Source: Roseomonas xinghualingensis (GTDB lineage Bacteria; Pseudomonadota; Alphaproteobacteria; Acetobacterales; Acetobacteraceae). Taken from it: a stretch of DNA of 17,498 bases. How positions within the stretch are numbered: the first letter of the stretch is position 1; each line of letters opens with the position of its first letter. Both the position numbers and the translations under genes were made by a program. Positions 10,750 through 15,124 of the stretch are shown one piece after another. The notes under the pieces are model-generated. The model was not told the origin of the DNA. It worked only from the letters and a program-made list of their open reading frames with translations, and did not search any database. The stretch spans positions 1 through 17,498 of the forward strand of contig NZ_JAOXLP010000053.1 of NCBI RefSeq assembly GCF_025791835.1, written 5' to 3'.

Positions 10750-11892
10750 ATGGATGCGCTGCCACCTGAGAGCCCCCTCGAAGCGGACATCGCCGCACGG
10801 ACCGATGTCTACTTCAAGCGTACCAGGGCGATCGTGCAGCGCTTCGGCAACGCTCGCGTCACCTACGCCATCTTCCTGCGGCGCCCTGTCGTCTGCGCCC
10901 CGAAGCTGATGCTGGACTGGCTTAGTGCCGTCTCGCGCCAGCGCGGCGCGGAGGTGTCGGTGGAACTGATGCACAAGGAAGGCACCTGGGTCGGCGCGGG
11001 TGACCCGATCCTCTACCTGACCGGCTCCTTCTCCCATCTGGCCGATCTGGAAACCCTGCTCCTGCAGAAGCTCGGCGCCGCCTGTGTCGCCGCGCACAAC
11101 GCCTATCAGATGTGCCTCGAACTGCCACATATCGCCTTCCTGGCGATGGAGGCGCGCCACTGCGCCGGGGCCGAGATGCAGGAGATCATGGCCTATGCCG
11201 CCGCCGTCGGCGGCAAGGCCGCGCAGGACGAGGGGGCGAAGGGCTTCGTCGGCAATGCCAATGACGCCACCGCCCATTACTACGGCGCTCCGCGCGGCGC
11301 GGGCACCATGCCCCATGCCCTGATCGGCTATGCCGGCAGCACGCTCCGTGCCGCCGAGATGTTCCACGAGACCTATCCGGACGACAATCTCACCGTCCTC
11401 GTGGATTATTTCGGCCAGGAGGTGACCGACGGCCTCGCCGTCTGCCGCCGCTTCCCCGAGCTCGCCGCCGCGGGGCGCATGGCCGTGCGCCTGGACACCC
11501 ATGGCGGCCGCTTTCTCGAAGGGCTGGACCCCGCCACCTCCTATGCGGTGATCGAGCGCCACGCCCCCGGCGCCATCCGCCGCTACCGCAGCGATGCCGA
11601 ACTGCGCCACTTGGTCGGCACCGGTGTCTCCGCCGCCGCCATCTGGCGCATGCGCGATGCGCTGGACGAGGCTGGGTTCCCGAAGGTCCGGATCATCGCC
11701 TCTTCCGGCTTCGGCGTGTCCAAATGCCGCGTGATGGCTGAGGCGAAGGCCCCGATCGATGTCGTCGGCACGGGCAGCTTCATTCCCAACAACTGGAGCG
11801 AGACCTACGCCACCGCCGATATCGTGGCCTATGATGGCGTGCCGCGCGTGAAGGTCGGCCGCGAGTTCCTGCTGCGCGACGCAGGCAGGTAG
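10750..11892 (+). CDS. Nicotinate phosphoribosyltransferase
   Basis: 380 residues, on the short side of the family. It converts nicotinate, PRPP and ATP to nicotinate mononucleotide in the Preiss-Handler NAD salvage pathway. Visible features: N-terminal ARTDVYFKRTRAIV, the beta-sandwich segment GTWVGAGDPILYLTGSF, SHLADLETLLLQKL, GFVGNANDATAHYYG, GTMPHALIGYAG with the probable phospho-accepting His189, VDYFGQEV, VRLDTHGG, IIASSGFG and a final VVGTGSF. The N-terminus is closer to archaeal and alphaproteobacterial NAPRT-like proteins than to E. coli PncB, hence no symbol. A quinolinate phosphoribosyltransferase role is less likely given the NAPRT motifs. It starts 2 nt after the DAHP synthase stop, with no strong ribosome-binding site, which suggests translational coupling. 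Confidence 0.88.
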   Translation: MDALPPESPLEADIAARTDVYFKRTRAIVQRFGNARVTYAIFLRRPVVCAPKLMLDWLSAVSRQRGAEVSVELMHKEGTWVGAGDPILYLTGSFSHLADLETLLLQKLGAACVAAHNAYQMCLELPHIAFLAMEARHCAGAEMQEIMAYAAAVGGKAAQDEGAKGFVGNANDATAHYYGAPRGAGTMPHALIGYAGSTLRAAEMFHETYPDDNLTVLVDYFGQEVTDGLAVCRRFPELAAAGRMAVRLDTHGGRFLEGLDPATSYAVIERHAPGAIRRYRSDAELRHLVGTGVSAAAIWRMRDALDEAGFPKVRIIASSGFGVSKCRVMAEAKAPIDVVGTGSFIPNNWSETYATADIVAYDGVPRVKVGREFLLRDAGR

Positions 11893-11938: not shown

Positions 11939-11963
11939 TTTCCGGCCCCGCGCCGCGAGCATC

Positions 11964-11969
11964 TAGGCT
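11964..11969 (+). promoter_or_regulatory. Candidate -10 element just before the NadE-like start
   Basis: TAGGCT lies 7 nt before the ATG at 11977. No ribosome-binding site is seen in the gap, and the same hexamer occurs 5 nt before another gene at 16986. Together these suggest a leaderless transcript; no convincing -35 element is visible. Confidence 0.3.
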
Positions 11970-11976
11970 GCGCCCC

Positions 11977-13404
11977 ATGCCAGAATCCCTTCGTATCGCC
12001 ATCGCGCAGACCAATCCGCGCATGGCGGACCCCGAGGCGAATGCCGGCCGCCTCCGCGGGCTCCGTGCCCAGGCCGCCATGCAAGGCGCTGACCTCCTCC
12101 TCACCCCGGAGCTTTCCCTCTCCGGCGCCGTCCCTGCCGAACTCGCCGTCCATCCCGGCTTCGCCGCCGCCTGCGAGGCCGCCCTGGCCAGCCTTGCCGC
12201 CGAAACCGCCGATGGCGGCCCCGCCCTCATCCTCGGCACCCCCTGGCGGGATGGCCCCCGGCTGCACGACTCCATTGCCCTGCTGGAAGGCGGCACTATC
12301 CGTGCCCGCCGCGCCGCGCATGAACCCCGCCCCGGCTACGATCCCGGCCCGGTCCCAGGCCCCATCGCCTTCCGTGAAACCCGCCTCGGCCTCATGACCG
12401 GCCGCGACTGGCGCCACCCCGCCACGCCCGAAACCCTGGCGGAAACCGGCGCCGAACTGCTGATCGCGCTCGATTCCCTTCCCGCCGGTCCTGAGGCTGA
12501 CGAAACCCGCCTTCAGACCGCCCTGGCCCGGGTGGTGGAGAACGATCTTCCCCTGATCCTCCTCAACCGCCTCGGTGCCGAGGAGGAGGAGGCCCATGAC
12601 GGCGCCGCCCTGATCCTGAACGCGGATCGTGCCCCCGCCCTCCGCCTCCCACCCTTCGCCGAAGGCCTCACCCTCACCGAATGGCGGCATGACGGCACCC
12701 GGTGGTATTGTGTCCCCCAGCCATCCCCACCCCCGATGCCTGCTCCGGAGCAACTCTGGCGCGCCATCCTCCTCGCCCTACGCGACCATGCGGATCGCCA
12801 CGAGGCCGCTGCCTTCCTCATCCCGCTGTCACTGTCATCCTCTCCCGAAAGCGCCCTGGCCGCCCTCCTGGCCGCCGATGCCTTCGGCCCGGCCCGCCTC
12901 CGCGCCCTGCTGGCGGAACCGGAAGGGGAGGGGGCCGCTCCGGACTTCGCCCACCGCCTGGGCATCCCCTTCGAAACCCTCGATCTCGCCCCCGCCCTGG
13001 CGGCCCTGCCATGGGCCGCTGCTGCGCAACTCCATCAGCTGGCCCTGGACAGCTTGGCCGAAACCACCGGCGCCCTTCCCATCGTCACGGTCCCAAGCGC
13101 CTGCCCGACTGCCTTCGCCCCGTTGAAGTACCTCTCCGGACCCGAACGCCGCGCCCTTGCCGTCTGGCGGAACGCGAACCACCCCTCCGGCCTGCTCGGT
13201 CCCGGCAACCCCGCCCTGCCACTTCCCCCCGTGGACAGTCCCGCCGCGACGGGGCATGACCCCGCCCCCCCGCGGCGGCTCTGGCAAAGTCTTGCCCTGG
13301 CGGATTACAAGCGGCGCCAGGCCCCGCCCGGCGTGAAGCCCGGCCCCCGTGCCCCTGGGCACGACCGGCGCCACACCAACCCCGACGGACCAAAGGCGCC
13401 ATGA
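11977..13404 (+). CDS. Degenerate glutamine-dependent NAD synthetase homologue (probable pseudoenzyme)
   Basis: 475 residues in one open frame. Homology to bifunctional NadE runs from end to end: RIAIAQTNPRMADPEAN, LLLTPELSLSG and TADGGPALILGTPW (nitrilase-type glutaminase), RLQTALARVVENDLPLILLN, then ALAVWRNANHPSGLLGP and YKRRQAPPGVK (444-454), the NadE C-terminal signature. Both active sites look destroyed. In the glutaminase triad Glu45 remains, but the Lys region reads RRAAHEPRPGYD and the nucleophile Cys (VCEDIW in NadE) is Gly142 in MTGRDW. The ATP pyrophosphatase loop SGGIDS is replaced by LSLSSSPES (284-292), and the TGNKSE and PPSAELRP segments are absent, making it shorter than the usual 540-plus residues. 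It overlaps the next gene by 4 nt (ATGA). It could be a decaying gene or a repurposed protein; NAD synthesis must be provided elsewhere. Confidence 0.8.
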   Translation: MPESLRIAIAQTNPRMADPEANAGRLRGLRAQAAMQGADLLLTPELSLSGAVPAELAVHPGFAAACEAALASLAAETADGGPALILGTPWRDGPRLHDSIALLEGGTIRARRAAHEPRPGYDPGPVPGPIAFRETRLGLMTGRDWRHPATPETLAETGAELLIALDSLPAGPEADETRLQTALARVVENDLPLILLNRLGAEEEEAHDGAALILNADRAPALRLPPFAEGLTLTEWRHDGTRWYCVPQPSPPPMPAPEQLWRAILLALRDHADRHEAAAFLIPLSLSSSPESALAALLAADAFGPARLRALLAEPEGEGAAPDFAHRLGIPFETLDLAPALAALPWAAAAQLHQLALDSLAETTGALPIVTVPSACPTAFAPLKYLSGPERRALAVWRNANHPSGLLGPGNPALPLPPVDSPAATGHDPAPPRRLWQSLALADYKRRQAPPGVKPGPRAPGHDRRHTNPDGPKAP

Positions 13405-13796
13405 CCAATTCTCCGCACCCCACCGCCAGCGGCCCCTTCGTCCGCATCAAGGACCTGTCGGGAGGCAATGGGGACGAGCCCGTGGAGGAGATCCGCGGCT
13501 TCCTCACCACCGCCGATGCCGCGACCTTCGCCCGCCGCTATGTGCGCGACAGCATCGAGCGCTGCCGTGCGCCGGGCATGGATGCGGAGGTCGTCCTCGC
13601 TGCCTGGTTCGCCTTCGGCGAGGATGCCGAGGCCCTGGACCCTTCCGGCGAGCACTGGACCTCGGCCGCAGAGATTCGCGCCTTCGCCGCCAAGCCCCCC
13701 CGAACCAAGTCCGAGCGCAACTGGCGCGCCCTGGACCCCCGCAAGAACATGACTGACGACGAGGAAGACGACGTGAACGGAGACCAGGGCGAATGA
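13401..13796 (+). CDS. Small conserved acidic protein of unknown function
   Basis: 131 residues, soluble. It begins inside the NadE-like stop codon (ATGA at 13401-13404) and its own stop overlaps the gltX start in the same way (13793-13796), so the three genes are almost certainly translated together. The central part is helical with FVRIKDLSG, EEIRGFLTTADAATFARRYVRDSIERCR and VVLAAWFAFGEDAEAL; the C-terminus is strongly acidic (DDEEDD) and probably disordered. I do not recognise a named domain. The tight coupling to gltX, and a position between metabolic and tRNA-charging genes, give the only hint of role. AAAGGCG before the ATG may act as a weak ribosome-binding site. Confidence 0.75.
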   Translation: MTNSPHPTASGPFVRIKDLSGGNGDEPVEEIRGFLTTADAATFARRYVRDSIERCRAPGMDAEVVLAAWFAFGEDAEALDPSGEHWTSAAEIRAFAAKPPRTKSERNWRALDPRKNMTDDEEDDVNGDQGE

Positions 13797-15124
13797 AGGT
13801 CCGCTTCGCCCCCAGCCCCACCGGCTGGCTGCATGTCGGCAATGCCCGCCCCGCCCTGGCCAACTGGCTGGAGGCGCGCAAGCGCGGCGGCACTTTCATC
13901 CTGCGCCTGGACGACACGGATACTGGCCGCTCCAAGCCCGAATACGCCCAGGGCATCGAGGAGGACCTGCGCTGGCTCGGCCTCGACTGGGACGAGTTCT
14001 TCCGCCAGTCCGACCGGCTGGACCGCTACGCGGCCGCCGCCGAAGTGCTGAAGAAGAAGGGCCTGCTCTATCCCTGCTTCGAGAGCGAGGATGAGCTGAA
14101 CTTCAAGCGCGAGCAGCGCCGCAAGCAGGGCCGCGCCCCGATCTATGACCGTGGCGCCCTGAAGATGACGCAGGAGCAGCTTGAGCGCGCCCTGGCCAAC
14201 GGCAAGCAGCCCTATTACCGCTTCAAGCTGAACACCCGCACCGTCTCCTGGCGCGACGGCGTGCTGGGCGAGCGCAATGTGAAGCTGCCCAGCCTGTCGG
14301 ATCCCGTGCTGGTCCGCGCCGACGGCTCCTTCCTCTACACCTTCACCTCGGTCGTGGATGACCTGGAGACGGGCATCACCCACATTATCCGGGGCGAGGA
14401 CCACGTTACCAACACCGGCATCCAGATCGATATCATCGAGGCGCTGTCCGGCCGCCCCAACCGCATCCATTTCGCGCATATGCCGCTGCTGATGGATGCG
14501 GAGGGCGGGCAGCTCTCCAAGCGTCTCGGCAGCATCTCGCTCCGCCAGTTCCGGCGCGATGGCATCGAGCCCGCGGCCATCACCGGCTATCTCTCAGCGC
14601 TCGGCACCTCGCGCGATCCCGTCGCCGCCGCGCCGCGCGACCTGATCGCGGATTGGGACATCACCCGCGTCTCCCATTCCCCCGCGCGCTTCGATACGAA
14701 GCAGCTTCTCGCCCTCAACCGGAAGTACCTGCACGCGCTGGACTTCGAGCAGGTGAAGGATCGCCTTCCGGAAGGCGCGGACGAGGAATTCTGGCTCGCC
14801 ATCCGCGGCAATCTCGACCTGCTGCCCGAGGCGCGCGACTGGTTCGACGTGGTGAGCGGTGACATCACCGTGCCCGAGCAGCCCGAGGAAGCCGAAGTCC
14901 TGAAGGCCGCGCTCGAAACCCTGCCCGACGGTTCCTGGGACGCCACCACCTGGCCGGCCTGGGCGGCCGCCATCGGTGCCGCCACGGGCCGCAAGGGCAA
15001 ACCCCTCTTCCTCCCCCTGCGGCGCGCGCTGACGGGCGAGGAACACGGCCCCGACCTCAAGACCTTCCTGCCGCTGATCGGCCGCGACCGCGCGGCTGTC
15101 CGCCTGCAACGCTCCCTCGGCTGA
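13793..15124 (+). CDS. gltX: Glutamyl-tRNA synthetase
   Basis: 443 residues, in the range of bacterial GluRS. It charges tRNA(Glu), and in many alphaproteobacteria one GluRS also charges tRNA(Gln) for the amidotransferase route. The class I signatures are present: FAPSPTGWLHVGN (HIGH box, His14), LRLDDTDTGRS, the tRNA-end-binding region, DLETGITHIIRGEDHVTNT, and QLSKRLGS (the KMSKS-equivalent loop, Lys243). The last third is the helical anticodon-binding domain, ending HGPDLKTFLPLIGRDRAAVRL. Alphaproteobacteria often carry two gltX copies; which type this is cannot be settled by eye. The start overlaps the preceding stop (ATGA), with GGAG (13779-13782) about 10 nt upstream. cysS follows after 5 nt. 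Confidence 0.95.
   Translation: MKVRFAPSPTGWLHVGNARPALANWLEARKRGGTFILRLDDTDTGRSKPEYAQGIEEDLRWLGLDWDEFFRQSDRLDRYAAAAEVLKKKGLLYPCFESEDELNFKREQRRKQGRAPIYDRGALKMTQEQLERALANGKQPYYRFKLNTRTVSWRDGVLGERNVKLPSLSDPVLVRADGSFLYTFTSVVDDLETGITHIIRGEDHVTNTGIQIDIIEALSGRPNRIHFAHMPLLMDAEGGQLSKRLGSISLRQFRRDGIEPAAITGYLSALGTSRDPVAAAPRDLIADWDITRVSHSPARFDTKQLLALNRKYLHALDFEQVKDRLPEGADEEFWLAIRGNLDLLPEARDWFDVVSGDITVPEQPEEAEVLKAALETLPDGSWDATTWPAWAAAIGAATGRKGKPLFLPLRRALTGEEHGPDLKTFLPLIGRDRAAVRLQRSLG

Follow-up and report, generated by a model that had tools for sequence, protein, structure and literature searches.

A NadE2-type NAD synthetase homologue lacking catalytic residues of both active sites, probably a selected pseudoenzyme, in Roseomonas xinghualingensis

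The window analyzed here is a 17,498-nt stretch of DNA from Roseomonas xinghualingensis (contig NZ_JAOXLP010000053.1), which contains on its forward strand a nadE-like coding sequence, nadE′, with a product of 475 aa. The gene is preceded by a nicotinate phosphoribosyltransferase-like gene (NAPRT) and followed by a 131-aa open reading frame (orf131) and by gltX, which encodes glutamate-tRNA ligase. The nadE′ product is homologous from end to end to the dimeric, type-2 glutamine-dependent NAD synthetases (NadE2), and it has lost key residues of both active sites. Because this loss is conserved among relatives, while the protein itself appears to be under selection, the comparisons of sequences suggest that nadE′ is probably a selected and folded pseudoenzyme of the NadE2 type.

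The best NCBIfam match of the nadE′ product was PRK13981, the family of short two-domain glutamine-dependent NAD synthetases, with a score of 198.9 bits, which falls far short of the curated cut-off of 479 bits; for P0040, an intact 554-aa relative found in the protein search, the score was 789 bits. The Pfam search detected a CN_hydrolase domain (4e-15), and a NAD_synthase match with an E-value of 0.055 that did not pass the cut-off. When the PDB was searched with the sequence of nadE′ (18 sequences), the top entries 4f4h (2.4e-37), 5kha, and 3n05 were all NAD synthetases, and they were followed by amidases and other proteins. The AlphaFold2 model predicted with confidence a NadE fold. The homology to NadE2 thus covers both domains and is accompanied by a common fold, which argues for common descent, and the N-terminal AQ.NP and C-terminal YKRRQAPPG motifs are present, in agreement with the end-to-end homology noticed in a first-pass annotation of this DNA. 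Compared with NadE2 enzymes such as the Azospirillum protein or that of PDB 4f4h, nadE′ retains the whole fold and occupies the same locus as its intact relatives, with 36–51% local identity to them, but it is about 80 residues shorter and lacks the catalytic Cys and Lys, SGGxDS, and GNKSE. Among the top 19 rows of the protein search, which include the protein of the window itself, seven were called "NAD+ synthase" by at least one source, while the NCBI label of several others was only nitrilase-related or hypothetical. A scan of the genome contigs found no relative.

Glutamine hydrolysis by NAD synthetases of this kind depends on a Glu-Lys-Cys triad, and ATP is bound by the SGGxDS loop. To compare these sites, 34 distinct degenerate proteins (20 belonging to the type found in the window, here called core type, and 14 others, with 8 duplicate rows dropped) were aligned with 104 rows taken as intact; both sets were assembled by the analyst by reading as well as by rank, length, and Pfam content, and the counts describe those sets, the intact one as found among the matches listed. 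The catalytic Cys, the catalytic Lys, SGGxDS, and GNKSE were all present in 104/104 intact rows. In the degenerate proteins the Cys column contained Gly in 32 cases, Ala in two, and Cys in none, the Lys was kept in 0/34, and neither an exact SGGxDS nor GNKSE was found in any of the 34. The window protein has Gly142 in place of the Cys, Ala114 in a rewritten Lys region, and SSSPES in place of SGGIDS, while GNKSE and PPSAEL are missing. These replacements had been read from the sequence in the first-pass annotation, and the alignment bears them out; its claim that the glutaminase site was lost holds for Cys and Lys, which are gone from all 34 degenerate relatives, but not for Glu, which survives as Glu45 in the window and is retained in 14 of the 34 proteins, the window's included. 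Hence, the glutaminase site has lost two of its three residues. The possibility that intact catalytic residues are located elsewhere in the protein found no support, as no substitute Cys or Lys was found in the alignment, and none was suggested by the comparison of predicted folds.

The same alignment showed that in 37 columns of the core type, a residue that is rare among the intact rows has become fixed (present in at least 93% of rows). Four of the replacements, W to R146, N to D166, Q to R198, and Q to E202, were each found in 20/20 distinct core-type proteins, and in sequence terms they fall within the former glutaminase motifs or near them, although the core-type residues are mostly not common to the other 14 degenerate proteins. 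The Lys-Arg-Arg of the C-terminal motif is largely kept, with K and the second R in 20/20 and the first R in 19/20 core-type proteins, and with K in 11/14 and each R in 13/14 of the others. The newly fixed residues together with the kept Lys-Arg-Arg tentatively suggest that binding surfaces were changed rather than lost.

The selection acting on nadE′ was estimated with a one-omega codon model (F3x4, own code), where omega is the ratio of nonsynonymous to synonymous substitution rates (dN/dS). For ten core genomes omega was 0.131 for nadE′, 0.042 for orf131, and 0.051 for gltX, and fixing omega of nadE′ at 1 worsened the fit by a doubled log-likelihood difference (2dlnL) of 1309. Eight pairs of degenerate genes, not all of them independent, gave omega of 0.057–0.150 with 2dlnL of 125–220, and one intact pair gave 0.044; these values are approximate because of large neutral tree lengths (28.9 for the ten genomes and 0.9–11 per pair). 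In the least saturated pair (G004/G003, 0.89), omega of nadE′ was 0.081 versus 0.085 for its gltX. Along the gene, the first 215 residues in the core group had omega of 0.077. A branch model on 419 gap-free codons of 14 taxa gave 0.094 for intact and 0.134 for degenerate branches; in the three-class version the stem omega reached the fit bound (4.48, with a stem length of 0.09), and this value was left uninterpreted. Simulations at omega of 1 returned estimates of 0.70–1.32 in 12 runs, of which two used the ten-genome tree and ten used two pairs, while those at 0.13 returned 0.127 and 0.132. The frame was open in 19/19 degenerate genomes read. A plain pseudogene, for which dN/dS near 1 and broken frames in relatives had been proposed as signs, is therefore disfavored.

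Fourteen of the 15 genus genomes carry a copy of the gene, which is degenerate in every case; ten copies belong to the core type, and those of G003, G004, G011, and G013 to a longer type. The product has 435–531 aa in 18/19 degenerate genomes read and 566 aa in G013, compared with 553–556 aa in eight intact genomes. Identical database proteins, the first residue aside, exist for eight of the genus genomes, under names that include Muricoccus roseus, M. aerilatus, M. pecuniae, Roseomonas populi, and Pararoseomonas indoligenes. All 15 genomes also encode a long, octameric type-1 synthetase of the Mycobacterium tuberculosis type (NadE1), which scored 1060.7–1085.3 bits against the PRK02628 cut-off of 473, so that a separate nadE, for which a search had been recommended, does exist. 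NadE1 has the same two domains as nadE′, but it is a separate gene located elsewhere; in the window's own genome (contig C38, 16571–18598, about 700 aa) its motifs are intact (FPELGLSG, VPKIHLPNY, AEICEDLW, and GVSGGLDS), and it is likely the working NAD synthetase.

In a survey of 200 genomes of the family, a NadE2-type match was found in 102 and NadE1 in 110, with both in 17 and neither in five at the thresholds used. NadE1 accompanied 9/9 degenerate copies versus 8 of the 93 other NadE2 carriers (Fisher 1e-8); of these 93, eight sequences were read and 85 were counted as intact, since they were not marked as degenerate among the matches listed, which is also the status of the eight that have NadE1. 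As the loss was probably a single event, this association cannot count as a test of independent events. It fits the explanation that NadE1 made NadE2 dispensable, in which the order of events would be NadE1 first. Five genomes have NadE1 and no nadE at the locus: G009 in the genus and, in other genera, G188, G015, G023, and G027, from which an intact NadE2 may have disappeared. In all five, NAPRT, orf131, and gltX are still at the locus, and no remnant of nadE was found there by tblastn at 1e-3.

To follow the descent of nadE′, 26 fetched loci (18 degenerate and 8 intact, the window itself excluded) were compared, with the proviso that some genes may fall outside the fetched stretch. The gene following nadE was orf131 in all 26; gltX came after it in 25 and cysS in 21, and NAPRT was upstream in 19. 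The conserved order indicates that nadE′ is the resident nadE2 and not a stray duplicate, and the tree placement also supports orthology. In the nadE tree the 24 degenerate rows formed one clade (100/100), which spans four genus labels and adjoins the intact G018 and G230/P0020. The tree of gltX, cysS, and orf131 conflicts with it, as the intact G230 was placed beside the degenerate G132 at 100/100. A tree with the very divergent G020 outside the degenerate clade was not rejected (p-AU 0.105), while one with both G020 and G132 outside was rejected (0.036). Repeated independent losses are disfavored by the single clade, though long-branch attraction of dead sequences could also produce such grouping. 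The pattern was taken as one origin of the loss with later exchange at G230 or G132, and a single loss, in an ancestor shared by several Roseomonas-type genera, is likely but not proven.

The features of the locus are collected in Table 1. The NAPRT neighbor, which an earlier reading took as an NAD-salvage gene, resembles nicotinate phosphoribosyltransferase, but no NCBIfam cut-off was reached (best score 131.5 bits versus 378). The same reading had coupled nadE′ directly to gltX through an ATGA overlap, which was wrong, because orf131 is located between them; nadE′ is coupled to orf131, and orf131 to gltX. The nadE′/orf131 ATGA overlap was found in 14/19 degenerate genomes and the 4-nt orf131/gltX overlap in 18/19, while intact carriers had a 4-nt overlap in 3/8 (one ATGA and two GTGA) and 0/7, respectively; gene starts for these counts were chosen by rule. 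The orf131 product had no Pfam or NCBIfam match and 763 homologues at E≤0.001, the best 120 of which were unnamed, hypothetical or uncharacterized; its AlphaFold2 model had a pLDDT of 83.4, and comparison of this fold with the PDB gave no credible match (best E 0.88). A −10-like CTAG[GC]NT element was found 13–17 nt before the ATG in 7/8 intact and 10/19 degenerate genomes (8/10 of the core ones), against a background, nadE hits included, of 20 among the 7442 ATGs of the fetched loci. With such spacing, the mRNA would be expected to be leaderless or nearly so. By eye, TTGAC with a 17-nt spacer was seen in several intact relatives.

Table 1. Positions in the window of nadE′, its domains and altered sites, and the adjoining features
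Feature	Position	Strand	Remark
NAPRT	10750..11892	+	nicotinate phosphoribosyltransferase-like gene
CTAGGCT	11963..11969	+	conserved −10-like element, 14 nt before ATG
nadE′	11977..13404	+	nadE-like coding sequence, 475 aa, probable NadE2-type pseudoenzyme
Nitrilase-like (glutaminase) domain	11977..12690	+	residues 1–238, fold retained
Ala114 codon	12316..12318	+	replaces catalytic Lys (Lys in 104/104 rows taken as intact)
Gly142 codon	12400..12402	+	replaces catalytic Cys
NAD-synthetase (Rossmann-like) domain	12742..13236	+	residues ~256–420, shrunken
SSSPES	12835..12852	+	residues 287–292, replaces ATP-binding SGGIDS loop
Lys-Arg-Arg	13309..13317	+	residues 445–447 of the YKRRQAPPG motif, retained
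orf131	13401..13796	+	131 aa, no known family, ATGA-coupled to nadE′ and gltX
gltX	13793..15124	+	glutamate-tRNA ligase

Several observations weigh against nadE′ being a selected pseudoenzyme. Its mean identity among the ten core genomes is 62%, compared with 80% for orf131 and 87–89% for GltX, CysS, and NAPRT; the synthetase half is reduced in length and less constrained (omega of 0.186 for residues 263–475), and the last 40 residues (436–475) have omega of 0.51 with 2dlnL of only 9.6. In most comparisons synonymous sites are close to saturation, 9/19 degenerate genomes are without the promoter-like element, and G009, as well as genomes elsewhere that hold only NadE1, lack nadE′, which means that it is dispensable in at least G009. 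One explanation of such data would be that the protein is idle, and that its frame stays open only because it belongs to the first gene of an operon, where a stop or a frameshift would shut off orf131 and gltX, which are coupled to it. This could account for the fast divergence, for the more frequent overlaps in degenerate genomes, and for the promoter-like element located directly before nadE′ in ten of them. Such a translational passenger is nevertheless expected to have omega of about 1 in its open frame, and omega of 1 (in a model that excludes stop codons) fit worse in every set, if only slightly for the last 40 residues; the 37 newly fixed positions of the core group also argue against it. 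The five nadE-less genomes keep orf131 and gltX, so that a passenger is not needed there, and overall this explanation seems unlikely.

The shortening of the protein in 18 of the 19 degenerate genomes, the erosion of the synthetase half, and the absence of the gene from G009 could instead reflect slow decay of a former NadE2 that is still losing constraint and is selected solely for folding without aggregation. The N-terminal domain, with an omega close to that of the intact pair and of GltX, does not fit this scheme well, and neither does a clade across four genus labels with every frame read open, which makes decay quite unlikely; together with the passenger explanation it receives about a quarter of our confidence. 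A further possibility is that the glutaminase pocket was rebuilt for another reaction with other residues, to which the fixed R146, D166, R198, and E202, and the presence of Glu45 and His115 in the window protein, could be related. However, Glu45 is not conserved through the core group, the fixed residues are mostly absent from the other 14 degenerate proteins, and position 142 is Cys in 0/34, so a new enzyme is very improbable. Between decay and repurposing, the two fates offered in the first-pass annotation, the distribution in the genus, low dN/dS, open frames, universal NadE1 and lack of replacement residues favor the latter.

The fact that both active sites of the probable pseudoenzyme are lost, yet the protein appears to be preserved by selection, suggests that it probably has a new, non-enzymatic job. 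Tentatively, this could be the job of a regulator or assembly partner in NAD metabolism. PMC7196632 describes that the dimeric NadE2 enzymes of Azospirillum, Herbaspirillum, and Synechocystis are inhibited by NAD+, that the PII signaling protein relieves this inhibition, and that in the Azospirillum enzyme NAD+ acts at a site separate from the substrate site. By analogy, an ancestor with such PII and NAD+ binding could have lost its chemistry to NadE1 and kept the binding. The gene would then have descended in place from NadE2, freed from catalysis by an already present NadE1, and its product, made from a nadE′-orf131-gltX operon, would serve as a non-catalytic regulatory or assembly subunit still binding NadE2 partners or ligands, which could be nadE′ itself, NadE1, PII, or nicotinic acid adenine dinucleotide (NaAD), NAD+, or glutamine in a remodeled pocket. 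In a more specific and rather doubtful version, the doubly dead NadE2 would be a dissociable sensor or regulatory subunit, coupling the NAD synthesis that NadE1 carries out either to nitrogen status (PII, glutamine) or, through the orf131-gltX operon, to translation, and in the Muricoccus/Pararoseomonas lineage the old glutamine pocket would have become a new charged ligand site.

Non-catalytic proteins kept beside a live pathway enzyme, which they activate, include the trypanosome AdoMetDC prozyme, a dead paralogue (PMC5201418), and HisZ, the regulatory subunit of ATP-PRT (PMC10795190). There, partner binding is proven, whereas that of nadE′ is a proposal, and the live counterpart of nadE′ is of a distant type and not a close paralogue. 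PMC3376133 describes lineage-specific loss of NAD synthetase (NADS) forms, and a word search of that text for "inactive" or "paralog" returned none. In the open-access literature, no paper was found on a pseudoenzyme of NAD synthetase or of the nitrilase superfamily, or on Roseomonas NAD synthetase, and a search for nadE pseudogenes listed studies of mycoplasma genomes and of sigma-S in E. coli; to judge by these searches nadE′ would be the first pseudoenzyme of the NAD synthetase family. If it regulates NAD synthesis, it would provide a natural test of how the non-catalytic roles of an enzyme outlive its chemistry, at one locus where related genomes present the intact enzyme, varying degrees of loss, and absence.

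Other sequences related to NAD synthetases were also observed. In L140 (G125), the loop that follows the catalytic Lys is shortened in a NadE2 with all motifs, and the NadE1 match lacks the first 117 model positions. Seven of the 15 genus genomes (G005, G006, G007, G009, G010 with two, G012, and G013) contain an extra open frame of 350–423 aa for a stand-alone glutaminase-like domain, whose match to the NadE1 model is confined to its first ~300 positions (380–386 bits, under the cut-off). An additional NAD_synthase match (194 bits, in an open frame of 352 aa) was found in L087 and L088 (G004:C1 and G013:C1), besides NadE1 and the degenerate copy.
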